From an uncultured Hungatella sp. (GTDB lineage: Bacteria > Bacillota > Clostridia > Lachnospirales > Lachnospiraceae), in contig CAMTAF010000003.1 in assembly GCA_947066955.1 (NCBI GenBank), positions 1-64,000 on the forward strand: 64,000 bases of DNA. The letters run 5' to 3'. Numbering within the stretch: the stretch's first letter is position 1; each line of letters begins with the position of its first letter. This document shows positions 18,269 to 39,824 of the stretch, piece after piece. The translations under genes and the position numbers were made by a program. The notes below the pieces were generated by a model. It was not told the DNA's origin and ran no database searches. It saw only the letters and a program-made list of their open reading frames with translations.

Positions 18269-18308
18269 GTTTCCGTAGCTCAGTTGGATAGAGCGACCGC
18301 CTCCTAAG
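18269..18308 (+). tRNA. 5' half of host tRNA-Arg(CCU), split by integration
   Basis: GTTTCCG acceptor strand, D stem GCTC/GAGC with GGA-containing loop, and ACCGC anticodon stem, ending in the anticodon loop CTCCTAA (anticodon CCU) plus G. The sequence then departs into element DNA. The matching 3' half is about 12.8 kb away at 31123-31164; joined, they give a canonical 74-nt cloverleaf with ACCGC/GCGGT and GTTTCCG/CGGGAAC stems. As it stands this copy cannot make a tRNA. Confidence 0.9.
18301..18308. other. Left attachment core (attL) CTCCTAAG
   Basis: Eight-base core in the tRNA anticodon loop, repeated at 27133-27140 and 31123-31130. The three copies delimit two tandem integrated elements. 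Confidence 0.85.
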
Positions 18309-18362: not shown

Positions 18363-18434
18363 GTTCCCTTAGTTAAATGGATATAACAGGAGCCTCCTAA
18401 GCCCCAGTTGTGAGTTCGATTCTCGCAGGGAACG
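18363..18434 (+). tRNA. Complete tRNA-Arg(CCU) carried by element 1
   Basis: GTTCCCT/AGGGAAC acceptor stem (perfect 7 bp), GTTA/TAAC D stem with GG in the loop, CTCCTAA anticodon loop with CCU, and GTGAG/CTCGC T stem around TTCGATT. The anticodon stem GGAGC/GCCCC has one A-C mismatch. No CCA is encoded. Its sequence is clearly different from the host tRNA-Arg(CCU) that the element interrupts 55 bases upstream, so it is cargo rather than a duplication. It likely decodes AGG, a common codon here, and may replace the broken host gene. Confidence 0.88.
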
Positions 18435-18440
18435 CTGAAA

Positions 18441-26771: not shown

Positions 26772-27132
26772 CTTTGACACTCCTTCTTTCGAGGAACGAT
26801 TATACCATTCTTTTTGAGATTGTAATACTCTTTTACAAGGAAATATTTAAAAACACCATTTCGTGAAATGTAAGGATTTCAATGTGTTGAAGTAAGTTTC
26901 TGATTCAAAAACTGATATCAGTTCATAATAATTCATAATTGGTAACTTATAAAGCAAAGCATAATTTCTCTTGCTAACAAAATTGCTAACAGGACAGTAT
27001 GATATTGTGTGATATAAGACAAGAATAGTTGATATTTTGTGATAGTGGTATCGTTAAAGAACCTTGTATTCTCTATAACTGTGTGGTATTCTGTATCACA
27101 GAACAGGAGCGGACAGAAGATGTGTTTTAGTA

Positions 27133-27174
27133 CTCCTAAGCGATAGGTCGGACGTTCAAGTCGTCTCGGGGACG
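27133..27174 (+). tRNA. Middle att core followed by a diverged tRNA-Arg 3' half
   Basis: CTCCTAAG then a 34-nt tRNA-Arg(CCU) 3' half with a GACG/CGTC T stem and a CGGGGAC acceptor strand. It differs from the host 3' half at several stem positions. In a tandem arrangement this is the attP arm of element 2, which would restore the tRNA when element 2 alone is integrated (GTTTCCG/CGGGGAC still pairs, with G-U pairs). With element 1 inserted to its left it is cut off from the 5' half. Confidence 0.8.
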
Positions 27175-27179
27175 TTGGA

Positions 27180-27220
27180 AAGCATTGAAAACATTGGATT
27201 TTCAATGCTTTTCTTTTTTT
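27180..27220 (+). terminator. Terminator after the element-borne tRNA half
   Basis: AAGCATTGAAAA (27180-27191) with TTTTCAATGCTT (27199-27210) and a T-rich tail. Like the host tRNA it provides a tRNA terminator, which supports the view that element 2 carries a functional tRNA end. Confidence 0.85.
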
Positions 27221-27242: not shown

Positions 27243-28384
27243 TCAGAGGACTCGGTTTTTTGGATATTTGTTATCACCCATGTTGCTAACAGGGAATCGA
27301 ACACAAAACTGCACTTTCAGAGCCGTTGCTAATAATCTGCTAATAGCATTTCCTTTCAGTGCCTTTGTCAGCATGGCAATCAACTCCGGTGATTGTTCCA
27401 ATGCTGAAATTAAATTTGTCAGGTCTGGGTTTCCATCTTCAGTGCTGGAGTGGCGCAGGGAATGGAATACAACATAAGGCAGCCCTGCCTTCTCCCGGAG
27501 CTTCGAGAACTCTTTTTCCATGATGCGGTTTTCCACAGGTCTTCCATTCGGAAGCGTCAGCACAAGGTTGGTATGGGTATTCGACATGACGGAAGGAAAA
27601 ATAAACAGGATGTCCTTGTCGTCCAAATGCTGTCGGGCCTCCCTTGATACACGGGCAAGCTCCTGTTCAATCCAAAGGTAGGAATCATCATTAGCGATGT
27701 CCTCGTCTGAAATATGTACCTTATCCCATGTCAGCCCGCAGATTTCACCATAGCGCATGGAATAGGCAAAAGCCAGATTCATTGCGACATAGAGTTTCAT
27801 ATCATCGCACTCGTCCAGTGCTTTACTGATCATACCTGCCGTCCATATGTCACGTTTCTTGTAGTTGGTCTTGGGCTTGTTTGCATGGGGGAACGGGTTC
27901 TTGCGATAATCTCCCATTTTACTGCCTGCTCGAAGGCACATCTGAGTACCTTATGGATACTGTGTATAGTGCCGGGTGTAAGATACTCACTCTGCGGCCT
28001 TTTGTTTTTCTTCGCCACAGGCTTTGTCTTCTGCAGCCGGACATAAAACTCATCCACAAACTTCGGGCTGATGTCCTGAACTGCCATATCACTGATTGCG
28101 GGATTAATGTAATTTGCAATCAGGGCACAGTTGGACTCATATGTTGATAAAGCCCAGTGCGACGTGCCGTAGATTTTTGCAAAGTCCCGCAGGAAGTCTT
28201 TTACAGTCAGCTCCTGTGGAGGGATAAAGGTCCCGTTGCCCTGCTGGTTCTCGATCTCAGCCTTCCTGCATTTTGCCTCAGCATGATCCTGACAGGTTTC
28301 CCATTTCTGGTGCTTCTCCCCTTTCTCATCCGTATAATAGTAAACCACTGAGTATTTGCTTTTCCTCTTGATAATAGATGCCAT
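27243..28384 (-). pseudogene. Broken tyrosine integrase of element 2
   Basis: Homologous to the intact element 1 integrase. The N-terminal part (MASIIKRKSKYSVVYYYTDE to EQAVKWEII) reads in one frame from 28384, and the catalytic part (NPFPHANKPKTNYKKRDIW onward) reads in another, with the shift near 27900-27915. There are two further in-frame deletions. One removes the segment before LPNGRPVENR. The other joins HSLRHSST directly to the C-terminal tail, losing the GHxxxDM segment and the catalytic tyrosine. The frame then runs on without a proper end. At least three lesions make it inactive. Confidence 0.9.
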
Positions 28385-28402: not shown

Positions 28403-28573
28403 TTACAACAGGTTGTTAAGCCAGTTGCCAAAAGATACCTTGGAGATCCTGATTGTCCGTCCAAGCCGGACCACTTTAAAATCCGGCTGCCTGCAAAGCT
28501 CATATGCCTTGCTTTTGCTGATCTGCAGAATATCTGCAATCTCAAGAACGGAATAGATTTTCTTATCTTGTGC
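28403..28573 (-). pseudogene. Truncated excisionase-like gene of element 2
   Basis: About 55 residues matching the HTH half of the element 1 Xis-like protein (KIYSVLEIADILQISKSKAYEL, FKVVRLGRTIRISKVSFGNWL). The N-terminal part is missing: upstream the frame runs into sequence that is coding on the opposite strand. An ORF to 28753 exists only as this fusion. It is located 18 bases before the integrase start, as in element 1. Confidence 0.7.
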
Positions 28574-28757
28574 AGGGACACATTCTGCACCACAGAAGGG
28601 CCGGAGCGCTACTTCAACCGCTCCATGGCAGACGGGACCTGGTATAGGGCCTCGCCTACAGGGAACTACTGTGAGAATGACTGCACGGTCAGGGAGGACG
28701 TCATCTTTGAGGTCATCGCCGGAGGCGAGGTCCACTGCCTGTATGACGGGCATGCCC
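28568..28757 (+). pseudogene. C-terminal fragment of an unknown plus-strand gene
   Basis: An open plus-strand frame reading PERYFNRSMADGTWYRASP, YCENDCTVREDVIFEVIAGG and CLYDG, with protein-like composition and three cysteines. It has no start codon with a ribosome site and abuts truncated Xis on its left and an intron-like sequence on its right. I read it as the 5' exon side of an intron-interrupted gene brought in by rearrangement. The family is not recognised. Confidence 0.45.
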
Positions 28758-29069
28758 GTGTTCTGTGGTGAAAGTCCACATAGGCGTAGCTACCAACGAA
28801 CTTTATAGCGACTCTCAAGGTTTGTATCGTGAGGTGCAGGCGAGAAGAAGAGATAGCAAAACCCGTAGCCCTACGGACAGAAACCTGATATTAAGGCGTA
28901 TATGGCGGGTGAGCTGGCAGGTGACAGCAAAGCCCAAAAGGTAGCCGTAACCCATATGCGTAAATTGGGAGGGTAGACGGGGAAAGAACACGGACATATC
29001 CCGCGAGGTCTCACAGGCGGTCACATTTGCCGTAGCAACAACGAACTGTGAGAAGTCAGCAGAAGCCAT
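28758..29069 (+). other. Group II intron 5' fragment (domain I region)
   Basis: Begins GTGTTCTGTGGTGAAAGTCC and contains phrases typical of group II intron domain I (GAGCTGGCAGGTGACAGC, AAAGCCCAAAAGGTAGCC, GGGAGGGTAGACGGGGAAAG) and the GAGAAGTCAGCAGAAGCC stretch that usually precedes the intron ORF start. It stops there: no reverse transcriptase follows, and the sequence switches to the kinase gene on the other strand. It is a 5' remnant that cannot splice. Confidence 0.7.
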
Positions 29070-29588
29070 AGTGACGATTTCCGCAGCTATTTCGTCCAGA
29101 TCCTTATTTCCAGTGTTGATTCTTACAGCATCAGAATATTCGGTTCCAAGGTACTCTATATGCTGTGAAATTTTAGGTGTCTGCTGTGCCTGCGCGTTCC
29201 TGTCCCGGATTGGGTCGTTTTCTATACGGGATATGATAGTTTCCTTTGTCGCTTCAAGAATGATGTGGTGCATGGGTACATCTTTCTTTTCAAAATAATC
29301 CAGGAGTTCTTTTTCACAGAGTTTCGTCACAAGCGACAAAGATACGATTGGTGTTTTGCCAGCGCCATACATCTTTTCCTCGATTGTTTTTCGGAGTATG
29401 TTGAGGAAAAATCTATTATAATATGGCTCGAACCCAGAGAGGGCTTCGTTAAAGTGGTCATGAATGAAATCTGCCCAATATAGGTCTGATTCTATATATT
29501 CGGCATCTTTTTCTGCCAGGAGTCCAGCCAGCTTTTGGGCAACATGGGACTTCCCTGCACCGACTGTTCCGTTTATCCAGACAATCAT
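28815..29588 (-). CDS. P-loop kinase/TmrB-like ATPase, C-terminus replaced by intron sequence
   Basis: It begins MIVWINGTVGAGKSHVAQKL, a P-loop like that of TmrB or small nucleoside/adenylylate-type kinases, and continues with IESDLYWADFI, PIVSLSLVTKL and IILEATKETIISRIENDP (lid-like). Homology appears to end near EIAAEIVT (29070). The remaining 85 or so residues are the antisense of the group II intron fragment, so the 257-residue ORF is chimeric. Activity is uncertain, since the lost C-terminal helix may be dispensable. There is no strong ribosome site ahead of the ATG. The substrate is unknown. Confidence 0.6.
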   Translation of the reverse strand: MIVWINGTVGAGKSHVAQKLAGLLAEKDAEYIESDLYWADFIHDHFNEALSGFEPYYNRFFLNILRKTIEEKMYGAGKTPIVSLSLVTKLCEKELLDYFEKKDVPMHHIILEATKETIISRIENDPIRDRNAQAQQTPKISQHIEYLGTEYSDAVRINTGNKDLDEIAAEIVTMASADFSQFVVATANVTACETSRDMSVFFPRLPSQFTHMGYGYLLGFAVTCQLTRHIRLNIRFLSVGLRVLLSLLLACTSRYKP

Positions 29589-29654: not shown

Positions 29655-30239
29655 CTAGTTGCTGCCTTGCGTTGGTTCGCGTTCCATGTCCCCCAGCTCC
29701 TCCATGTTCGGTTCTGAATAAAATGGATCGGGAGAAGCCTCGATGTCAGGCTGGATGGCATCGCTGCCGTTCAGCTCATCAAGCATGATCTTTTCCAGGC
29801 GCGTGATGTCAGGGAATACCACTTTCATGCCCCTTGCATGGAGCTGGCGCAGCCGTTTCATGTTCGTGCTTACCTCGCTGTGGATGGAGTGCTTTACCGG
29901 GACCGGGTTATTGTTTCTGGTATGTATGTGGTCCAGATAGCGTTCAGTGACAGGGAACATATTCTGCAGGAGAAAGGCGGCGCTTTTCCCATCAAACTCT
30001 CCAAGGACAATGGTGAGGCACCTGCCATATTTCCTGACCTGTTTGTCGTGGATTGACCTGAATTTGTCTATCCGGCTGCTTAACGGGACCATCCAGAGCA
30101 GAGAGGTCTTGTCATCTTTTAGGCAGTAGAAAGTAGGGCGGTATGTACCGTTCTCTTTGTTCTGCATGAGCATATCGTCGTTTACTTTTTCAAAATATTC
30201 ATCTTTGATATGATATACATAGCCTTCTTTGTAAAGCAT
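29655..30239 (-). CDS. Type III toxin-antitoxin toxin, ToxN/CptN-like endoribonuclease
   Basis: 194 residues. The N-terminal core (VYHIKDEYFEKVND, LLWMVPLSSRIDKFRSIHDKQ, LTIVLGEFDGKSAAFLLQNMFPVTERYL) has the layout of ToxN/AbiQ/CptN toxins, which are compact RNases that cut at A-rich sites. Basic and polar residues in SSRIDKFRSIHDK fit the catalytic region. The C-terminal 30 residues are acidic. The gene is preceded by two tandem 46-nt repeats, a terminator and a consensus promoter, which is the diagnostic type III arrangement. Subfamily assignment (CptIN versus ToxIN/TenpIN) is uncertain. It may stabilise the element or abort phage infection. Confidence 0.8.
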   Translation of the reverse strand: MLYKEGYVYHIKDEYFEKVNDDMLMQNKENGTYRPTFYCLKDDKTSLLWMVPLSSRIDKFRSIHDKQVRKYGRCLTIVLGEFDGKSAAFLLQNMFPVTERYLDHIHTRNNNPVPVKHSIHSEVSTNMKRLRQLHARGMKVVFPDITRLEKIMLDELNGSDAIQPDIEASPDPFYSEPNMEELGDMEREPTQGSN

Positions 30240-30258
30240 GTGTCACCGCCTATAAAAT

Positions 30259-30282
30259 CAGCCCTACCTTACGATAGGGCTG
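30259..30282 (-). terminator. Attenuator terminator between antitoxin repeats and toxin
   Basis: Read on the minus strand: CAGCCCTA, a short loop, a complementary TAGGGCTG arm and ATTTTAT. In type III systems such a terminator lets most transcripts stop after the antitoxin RNA, with read-through making toxin. It lies 20 bases before the toxin start. Confidence 0.85.
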
Positions 30283-30292
30283 GGAATTTTCG

Positions 30293-30384
30293 GGCCGGAC
30301 ATTTATTAGACGCCTCCGGTGGGCGAGCCATATTTTCGAGCCGGTCATTTATAGGCCGCCAACGGTAAGCGGGCAATATTTTCG
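30293..30384 (-). ncRNA. Type III antitoxin RNA: two 46-nt tandem repeats
   Basis: On the minus strand, unit 1 (30384-30339) and unit 2 (30338-30293) both start CGAAAATAT and end ATAAATG-CCGG-, with differences concentrated in paired-looking GC segments (GCCCGC/GGCGGCC versus CTCGCC/GGAGGCG). A partial third CGAAAAT start (30292) leads into the terminator. The toxin would cut the A-rich junctions to release pseudoknot monomers that hold it inactive. Unit length and layout match known CptI/ToxI-type antitoxins. Confidence 0.82.
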
Positions 30385-30408
30385 ATAGATTTCTCTATCT
30401 TTATTATC

Positions 30409-30437
30409 ATTATACGAAAGAAGCGGAAATATGTCAA
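30409..30437 (-). promoter_or_regulatory. Consensus promoter of the type III TA locus
   Basis: On the minus strand: TTGACA (30437-30432), exactly 17 bases, TATAAT (30414-30409). Both hexamers match the sigma-A consensus fully. Transcription would begin near 30402, about 18 bases before the first repeat, after a small GATAGA...TCTATC hairpin. Confidence 0.92.
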
Positions 30438-30984: not shown

Positions 30985-31122
30985 AGCTGGTCTCCTCTGA
31001 AATATTTGTTTTATCTTGTACTGCAAATCCGGTTGTGTTATGATATAAAAGAACATTGAAAAAGCGTTGCGAGAGGGATGAGCGCTCTTGGCCTATAAAA
31101 TGAGTCTGCTAACAAAATTTAA

Positions 31123-31164
31123 CTCCTAAGCGGTAGGTCGGGTGTTCAAGTCACCTCGGGAACG
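31123..31164 (+). tRNA. Right att core and 3' half of host tRNA-Arg(CCU)
   Basis: CTCCTAAG followed by GCGGT (anticodon stem), variable AGGTC, a T arm with TTCAAGT loop, and CGGGAAC plus discriminator G. It completes the 5' half at 18269-18308. This is the original chromosomal 3' end, pushed away by two elements. Confidence 0.88.
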
Positions 31165-31174
31165 CTGGAAGTAT

Positions 31175-31213
31175 AGCCGAAAGCCTTGATTTTAGCAGGT
31201 TTTCGGCTTTCTT
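31175..31213 (+). terminator. Host tRNA-Arg terminator
   Basis: AGCCGAAA (31175-31182) with TTTCGGCT (31201-31208), followed by TTCTTC. It lies 10 bases after the tRNA 3' end. Confidence 0.75.
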
Positions 31214-37856: not shown

Positions 37857-37907
37857 AGGAAGTGCGCTGATGCACACAATGTATGATGAATGAAAAAGGA
37901 GTTTAAG

Positions 37908-39134
37908 ATGGGGAAAATCGAAGGAATCCGAATCCAGAATTACGGACCGCTGAAAGATGTCGTCATGGGAAAGACCCGTTCGAACCAGAAAGTAGAGGCA
38001 CTGGGCAATCTGGTGGCAATTATAGGCCCAAGCGGGAACGGAAAAAGCACCTTCGCGGATGTCTTTGGCTTTATTGCGGACTGCCTGGATATGGGGGTAG
38101 AGGAGGCCTGTGATGCCAATAATCGGGGAGGCTATGAAAGGCTGATTTCTCAAAACGCGGCTGGCCCCATTTCATTTGAACTGTATTACAGGGAATCCAG
38201 AAAAACACGTCCGATTACTTATGAATTAGACATTGCCCTGGATAAAACAGGCCGCCCATATGTTAAACAGGAGCGGCTTCGCCAAAGAGTAGAACGCTAT
38301 GGCTGGCCGCGCTCCTTTTTATACTTACAAGAGGGAAAAGGATATGTCTTTGAGGGAAGTGAAAATGAAGAAACAGGACAAAACGATGATGGAAGTATTG
38401 TCGGAAAACCAGTGAATGTGGAATTAAACGATATCCGTAAACTGGGGATTGTTACCCTGGGAGCTATGAAGCAGTATGGAAGAGTGGAAAAATTTCTGAA
38501 CTTCTTAAGAAGCTGGTTTTTGTGCTATTTTTCTCCGGATTCTGCCAGGATAATACAGTCCGCCGCCCCTCAGGCTTATTTAAACAGAACAGGAAGTAAT
38601 ATTAATAATGTCGCCCAATATATGTTTCGGGAAAACCCAAAAGATTTTAAAAAGGTATTGGAGGAGATCCAGGATAAACTTCCAGGAATAGAAAGAGTGG
38701 AGCCGATCCGTTTTGAAAACGGACAGATGATGTTAAAATTTTGGGAATCCGGTTTCAAAGAAGCTTTTTATTCACAGAAGATGTCCGATGGGACCTTAAA
38801 ATTATTTGCTTACTATCTGTTATTGCATGAAAAGAATCCCAGACAGCTGGTGTTCATTGAGGAACCGGAAAATGGTCTTTATCACCAGTATTTGAGTACA
38901 CTTGCTGATGAAATGATAGAAAATGTGGGAAGCGGTTTTGCGAAGCAGATTTTTGTAACTACCCACAGTCCGTTTTTTGTAAACGCTCTTGTTCCGGAGA
39001 ATGTATGGGTTCTGACAAAAGGGAAAGATGGTTTTTCTACGGTACAGAAAGCTTCCGCATACCCGTTTGTAAAAGAACTTTCCGACGAGGGGGTGGAAGT
39101 GGGAGATATGTGGTATAGCAAGTACTTCGGGTAA
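37908..39134 (+). CDS. AAA ATPase (RecF/OLD-like), defence-module type
   Basis: 408 residues from the ATG at 37908, seven to eight bases behind AAGGAG. SMC/ABC-type ATPase: IRIQNYGPLKD strand, Walker A GPSGNGKS, signature-like MSDGTLKLFAYY, Walker B LVFIEEPENGLYHQ and H-loop FVTTHSPFFVNAL. The family (AAA_15/AAA_21) powers OLD-type and PARIS-type defence proteins. The following gene supplies a Toprim-like partner nine bases downstream, so the two probably form one complex. The Toprim domain is separate here, unlike in OLD. Confidence 0.9.
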   Translation: MGKIEGIRIQNYGPLKDVVMGKTRSNQKVEALGNLVAIIGPSGNGKSTFADVFGFIADCLDMGVEEACDANNRGGYERLISQNAAGPISFELYYRESRKTRPITYELDIALDKTGRPYVKQERLRQRVERYGWPRSFLYLQEGKGYVFEGSENEETGQNDDGSIVGKPVNVELNDIRKLGIVTLGAMKQYGRVEKFLNFLRSWFLCYFSPDSARIIQSAAPQAYLNRTGSNINNVAQYMFRENPKDFKKVLEEIQDKLPGIERVEPIRFENGQMMLKFWESGFKEAFYSQKMSDGTLKLFAYYLLLHEKNPRQLVFIEEPENGLYHQYLSTLADEMIENVGSGFAKQIFVTTHSPFFVNALVPENVWVLTKGKDGFSTVQKASAYPFVKELSDEGVEVGDMWYSKYFG

Positions 39135-39143
39135 GGAGGACAC

Positions 39144-39824
39144 ATGTATTTTCAATTTTTGATTGAGGATGAATCCACAGAAGTATTGATCCGCCATATT
39201 ATGGAAAAGTTAAAAGAGAATTATCGTGAAAAGGAGATTTACTATGACAGTAAATCGTTCCATGGCCTGGGCCATCTAAAAAGAACAGGAGGTTTGCAGG
39301 AGAGGAAAACAGGAAATCTTCTGAACGATTTGAGAATGTATTTGCGGGCATTCGACAGAAAGCTGTCAGGTATGAAAAATACTTCTATTGTGGTGGTGTT
39401 GGATAATGATATGAATGAGACAAAAATATTTCGGGAAAAATTAGAGAAATTGGCCATAGAGAACATGATTTTTACGGATCATGTGTTTTGTATCGCGGTA
39501 AAAGAAATGGAAGCATGGCTGCTTGGAGATATGAACGCGATAGAAGCGGCGTATCCTAAAGTTAGAAAAAACGCTATAAAAAATTATACTCAGGATGAAA
39601 TTGGCGACACATGGGAAGTACTGGCCAATGCCGTGTATAAAAGCGGGTTAAGCGGTCTGCGTAAAAAAGCCGGCAACGCCTATACGGAAATTGGGAAAGC
39701 GAAGAAAGAATGGGCAGACAGGATAGGAATTTTTATGGATTTAGAGAATAATCGTTCTCCCAGCTTTCAGTATTTTATAACAAGTCTGAAAGACAGAATT
39801 GAGAAAAGCAGCCAGTATGGGTAA
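39144..39824 (+). CDS. DUF4276/Toprim-like protein, partner of the AAA ATPase
   Basis: 226 residues. FLIEDESTEVLIRHIM carries the first acidic residue of a Toprim-like fold, VVVLDNDMNETK the D-x-D pair, and IAVKEMEAWLLGDMNAI the conserved E-x-E/W-L element of DUF4276. In defence pairs this is the putative nuclease, activated by the ATPase. It overlaps nothing and ends the operon; the 39825-39948 gap shows no gene. Confidence 0.85.
   Translation: MYFQFLIEDESTEVLIRHIMEKLKENYREKEIYYDSKSFHGLGHLKRTGGLQERKTGNLLNDLRMYLRAFDRKLSGMKNTSIVVVLDNDMNETKIFREKLEKLAIENMIFTDHVFCIAVKEMEAWLLGDMNAIEAAYPKVRKNAIKNYTQDEIGDTWEVLANAVYKSGLSGLRKKAGNAYTEIGKAKKEWADRIGIFMDLENNRSPSFQYFITSLKDRIEKSSQYG

Follow-up and report, generated by a model that had tools for sequence, protein, structure and literature searches.

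An intact-looking type III toxin-antitoxin locus of the CptIN family, with two classes of antitoxin repeat, in a broken, tRNA-bounded element

Organization of the cptIN locus

The window, the whole 64-kb stretch of DNA analysed here, carries a cptIN locus on its minus strand, with the following features in the order in which that strand is read.

30409-30437, minus strand: cptI promoter of the sigma-70 type (TTGACA, 17-nt spacer, TATAAT; 12/12 consensus positions)
30383-30399, minus strand: 5′ leader hairpin immediately ahead of unit 1 (GATAG...CTATC)
30339-30384, minus strand: cptI unit 1 (class 1), CGAAAATATTGCC...CCGGCT (TRF, pseudoknot counts, class analysis)
30293-30338, minus strand: cptI unit 2 (class 2), CGAAAATATGGCT...CCGGCC (TRF, pseudoknot counts, class analysis)
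30286-30292, minus strand: third-unit start CGAAAAT (sequence; relatives carry one too)
30259-30282, minus strand: intrinsic terminator hairpin in the antitoxin/toxin gap (10 pairs, z -3.7, then ATTTTA)
29655-30239, minus strand: cptN toxin ORF, 194 aa (NF047359, 190.7 bits; PDB 4rmo, E 1.3e-20)

A preliminary description of this DNA had reported a full-consensus promoter, two 46-nt tandem repeats, a partial third repeat start, a terminator before the toxin and a 194-residue ToxN/CptN-like protein, together forming a type III toxin-antitoxin locus. All of these features were recovered, and the family could be narrowed to CptIN. The span of 30236-30437 given there covers the promoter to the toxin start but omits the toxin itself.

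The tandem repeats 5′ of the toxin were detected by TRF as 2.2 copies of period 46 at 30286-30385. Units 1 and 2 are identical at 35 of 46 positions. At lags 30-74, the highest-scoring match over 46 bases was 36/46, a value equalled by none of 2000 dinucleotide shuffles (shuffle best 29), and at lag 46 the cptI repeats were the top-scoring place in the whole window. The third-unit start is predicted to supply the 3′ cleavage site for unit 2. Most close relatives share the order promoter, repeats, terminator and toxin, and a promoter at the position seen in the window recurs in relatives. Among full-length relatives with more than 58% identity, most have two 46-nt units 5′ of the toxin. The leader hairpin is kept at the same place in most relatives, with both-sided changes in three of its four consensus pairs.

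The CptN toxin

The profile search assigned the protein to the NCBIfam CptIN equivalog NF047359 (190.7 bits against a cut-off of 90), with all 150 profile positions (1-150) aligned. NCBIfam alone names the protein, as neither Pfam nor PADLOC gave a match. Its sole PDB match was the CptN of Eubacterium rectale (4rmo, over 143 residues). In the alignment of this match, the catalytic residues S51, S52 and R53 of E. rectale CptN (numbered as in PMC4627078) correspond to S54, S55 and R56 of the window's protein. Among the residues that contact adenine, Asp81 is kept as D83, but Ala87 stands in place of Ser85 and His106 in place of Tyr104. Both replacements are constant across an eight-sequence alignment of the clade and are therefore probably a feature of the clade rather than a sign of decay. 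Residues 1-155 form the conserved domain, and residues 156-194 form an acidic tail of 39 residues found in the closest relatives only. Compared with close relatives, the toxin gene showed dN/dS values of 0.04-0.08 (about 0.07) where these could be estimated; CptN evolves under purifying selection. The locus is almost certainly a complete, intact-looking and ordinary CptIN type III toxin-antitoxin system and a new member of that family.

Support for the cptI pseudoknot

The stems were taken from the crystal structure of CptI (PMC4627078), with positions 13-17 pairing with 25-29 (S1) and positions 20-24 pairing with 40-44 (S2), and 51 distinct repeat units were aligned without gaps for the counts. 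Across these units, 89.8% of the S1 and S2 cells were paired, compared to 79.7% in shuffled controls and 20-54% when the partners were slid, and 57 cells were changed on both sides, compared to 16 in shuffles. The shuffle control is inflated by the kinship of the sequences, which the slid control preserves. The latter was also used in place of a raw mutual-information ranking, which is inflated by the presence of two repeat classes. A putative H-type pseudoknot like that of CptI, which the preliminary description had proposed to look for by folding the 46-nt units, is thus supported by compensatory changes across the 51 units. Plain secondary-structure folding of single units, a method that cannot draw pseudoknots, gave no signal (z above 0), and no Rfam family matched the repeats even at E 1. 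The A-rich second loop has A33, A35, A36 and U38 invariant in the aligned units. The loop AAUAAAUG aligns with A27-G35 of CptI, in which A29 and U30, equivalent to positions 33 and 34 here, are required for antitoxicity (PMC4627078).

The two units of the window differ at 11 positions. The preliminary description had placed most of these differences in segments able to pair; this is partly right, as 6 of the 11 lie in stem positions (stems make up 20 of the 46 positions). From unit 1 to unit 2, one pair changes on both sides with full compensation (U24-A40 to A24-U40) and another changes on one side with pairing kept (U17-G25 to C17-G25). Positions 13 and 29 pair in unit 1 only and positions 23 and 41 in unit 2 only, leaving a U-C mismatch within S2 of unit 1 and a U-U mismatch within S1 of unit 2. 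The repeat alignments are deep enough to serve as a covariation test of the CptI pseudoknot.

Two classes of antitoxin repeat

Comparison of 40 distinct two-unit loci revealed that, for 78 of the 80 units, the nearest unit from another locus sits at the same position in its array. Units of the same locus are hardly more alike (mean 36.2/46) than a unit 1 and a unit 2 taken from separate loci (36.0). Judged by sequence, units 1 and 2 are separate classes, held apart in nearly all of the 40 loci. Class 1 units have five S1 pairs (33/35) and an imperfect S2 (32/35); class 2 units have U-U at 13-29 (32/34) and a full S2 (32/34). Both units of the window fit this pattern, the single unusual feature of an otherwise ordinary locus. 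Non-identical unit pairs are present in the E. rectale-like and 48-nt groups as well, and in the E. rectale-like group some of the unit differences preserve pairing by compensation (A-U to G-C in S1, G-C to A-U in S2).

It is tempting, and at present speculative, to propose that neither repeat can stand in for the other in this CptIN subfamily, each perhaps serving a separate purpose. Each 2:2 toxin-RNA complex might, for instance, hypothetically take up one RNA of each class, or the two might behave as if one were a fast-releasing and the other a tight-binding antitoxin. Two unit classes would likewise be expected from a simple duplication at an early stage, with later drift limited by structural constraint. 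The conserved non-identity of the antitoxin units is invisible to structures built from a single RNA sequence.

The carrying element and its tRNA-Arg site

The cptIN locus sits in an element of roughly 4 kb with a broken integrase and fragments of tRNA-Arg at both ends, as follows.

27130-27180, plus strand: tRNA-Arg(CCU) 3′-half fragment, left end of the small element (42/49 identical to 31122-31170)
27243-28384, minus strand: broken tyrosine integrase (two overlapping ORFs, frameshifted, without the tyrosine box)
28403-28753, minus strand: excisionase-like HTH_17 protein (PF12728, 33.9 bits)
31122-31170, plus strand: right end of the small element, the host tRNA-Arg(CCU) 3′ half in displaced position (the match runs on at 96% identity into the empty site in L116, a genome of the same genus)

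These results bear out the earlier view of a degraded integrative element. The next-best place in the window for the left-end fragment matches at 25/49. The inner 4-kb part holds the broken integrase, which has an intact 461-aa relative in another genome (L110), the excisionase-like gene, an AAA gene that runs into a piece of a group II intron, cptIN and one more ORF. The intron-related piece at the end of the AAA gene extends over 28741-29072 (RF02001 at 28823-28991); similar pieces are present on further contigs of the same genome and among relatives.

The anticodon loop is the point at which the host tRNA-Arg(CCU) gene is split, with the 5′ half at 18269-18308 and the 3′ half at 31123-31182, and no second copy of this gene was found across the assembly. 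In L116 the tRNA gene is unbroken and the flanks match on both sides. The outer part of this 12.8-kb tandem insert carries an intact integrase and, at 18363-18435, a whole tRNA-Arg(CCU) of its own that differs from the host's, placed next to the integrase as if replacing the broken host gene. Outside the element, an AAA ATPase (AAA_21) and a DUF4276 protein at 37890-39824 scored 543 and 315 bits as HEC-01A and HEC-01B in PADLOC and form a candidate defence pair.

Relatives and distribution

A total of 70 cptN relatives were found in genome contigs, and 67 of the 397 genomes from the same family contained a match to the CptIN model. At genus level a match was present in 5 of 26 genomes, and the window's copy alone was both full-length and close; this patchy distribution suggests horizontal spread. 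In the closest relatives the neighbours of cptN are different genes, except for a shared C-terminal piece of the upstream ORF (L002, L003 and L015), indicating that the toxin-antitoxin pair moves between contexts. A prophage-borne locus was considered and dropped, as phage records and viral contigs yielded no relative; the plasmid search returned distant relatives only (under 40%). With the window's locus comes a large and well-sampled CptIN subfamily, found mainly in gut Lachnospiraceae, and the small tRNA-bounded setting of the locus lends support to the view that CptIN travels with mobile DNA and may help to retain it.

Variation among the relatives was also noted. In three relatives of the toxin gene (L012:3780-4110, L033:3464-3794 and L079:1156-1486), the repeats are replaced by unrelated sequence and a remnant of the terminator region is left; these are possible toxins without antitoxin. 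In L008, L009 and L051, roughly 70-125 nt of extra sequence with another hairpin separates the cptI terminator from the toxin start.

Proposed mechanism and role

By analogy with the E. rectale system, a single promoter would give rise to an RNA in which two units of 46 nt each form a pseudoknot, and read-through of the terminator would yield the CptN mRNA. CptN, a putative endoribonuclease of the Kid/ToxN fold, would cut RNA at CGA|AAA junctions; the released pseudoknots would form a complex with CptN and keep the toxin inactive. If the locus were lost, or the short-lived RNA were no longer supplied, free CptN would cut cellular RNA, and the likeliest benefit would be the keeping of the small element that carries cptIN. 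This scheme joins what was read from the window and its relatives (sequence, architecture, homology, pseudoknot covariation, purifying selection and element boundaries) to cleavage, complex formation, toxicity and retention as modelled on the E. rectale system. In E. rectale, CptI is cut between GA and AA (PMC4627078), and cleavage at the A-rich junction of the window's repeats, as proposed here, would be consistent with this.

Could the locus instead be a decayed remnant in a dying element, homologous to CptIN and no longer toxic or no longer neutralised? The state of the element invites this reading: its integrase is frameshifted and has lost the tyrosine box, its AAA gene runs into a group II intron piece, each repeat contains one mismatch, and some other relatives have truncated toxins or, as in L012, L033 and L079, toxins without repeats. 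However, the window has an intact promoter, intact repeats, an intact terminator and an intact ORF, the S-S-R active-site residues are kept and the toxin shows a dN/dS of about 0.07. The mismatches themselves follow a pattern that intact relatives conserve. Decay is therefore very unlikely, and an intact CptIN system is much the better reading.

For such an intact system, holding the element is probably a likelier role than phage defence, because the E. rectale CptIN stabilised plasmids and, in E. coli, gave no protection against any of the more than 200 coliphages tried (PMC4627078). That cptIN is chiefly an anti-phage abortive infection system rather than a means of holding the element seems doubtful on the same grounds, even though abortion of phage infection is established for its ToxIN relatives (PMC5086642) and the HEC-01-like candidate defence pair is located 7 kb away; that pair lies outside the element, and CptN itself was unmatched in PADLOC. 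Phage defence is a possible role, unsupported for the CptIN family.

Comparison with known type III systems

Compared to other type III systems, the window's locus shares its architecture with both ToxIN/AbiQ and TenpIN and, by analogy, may share its mode of action with ToxIN/AbiQ. Its toxin has no match to ToxN/AbiQ or to TenpN in Pfam, NCBIfam or PDB. ToxIN/AbiQ differs further in its shorter repeats (34-36 nt), which are more numerous, in its heterohexamers and in its proven phage abortion.

The closest known system is the E. rectale CptIN (PDB 4RMO; PMC4627078). The two have in common the toxin homology with its S-S-R active site, a two-unit array with a terminator ahead of the toxin, the GA|AA junction and, as predicted for the window, an H-type pseudoknot with a one-base first loop and a second loop of the AAUAAAUG type. 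The window's system differs in its unit length (46 nt compared to 45 nt), in the Ala and His that stand for Ser85 and Tyr104, in the acidic tail of about 40 residues on its toxin, and in its units, which fall into two classes and are non-identical at 11 positions.
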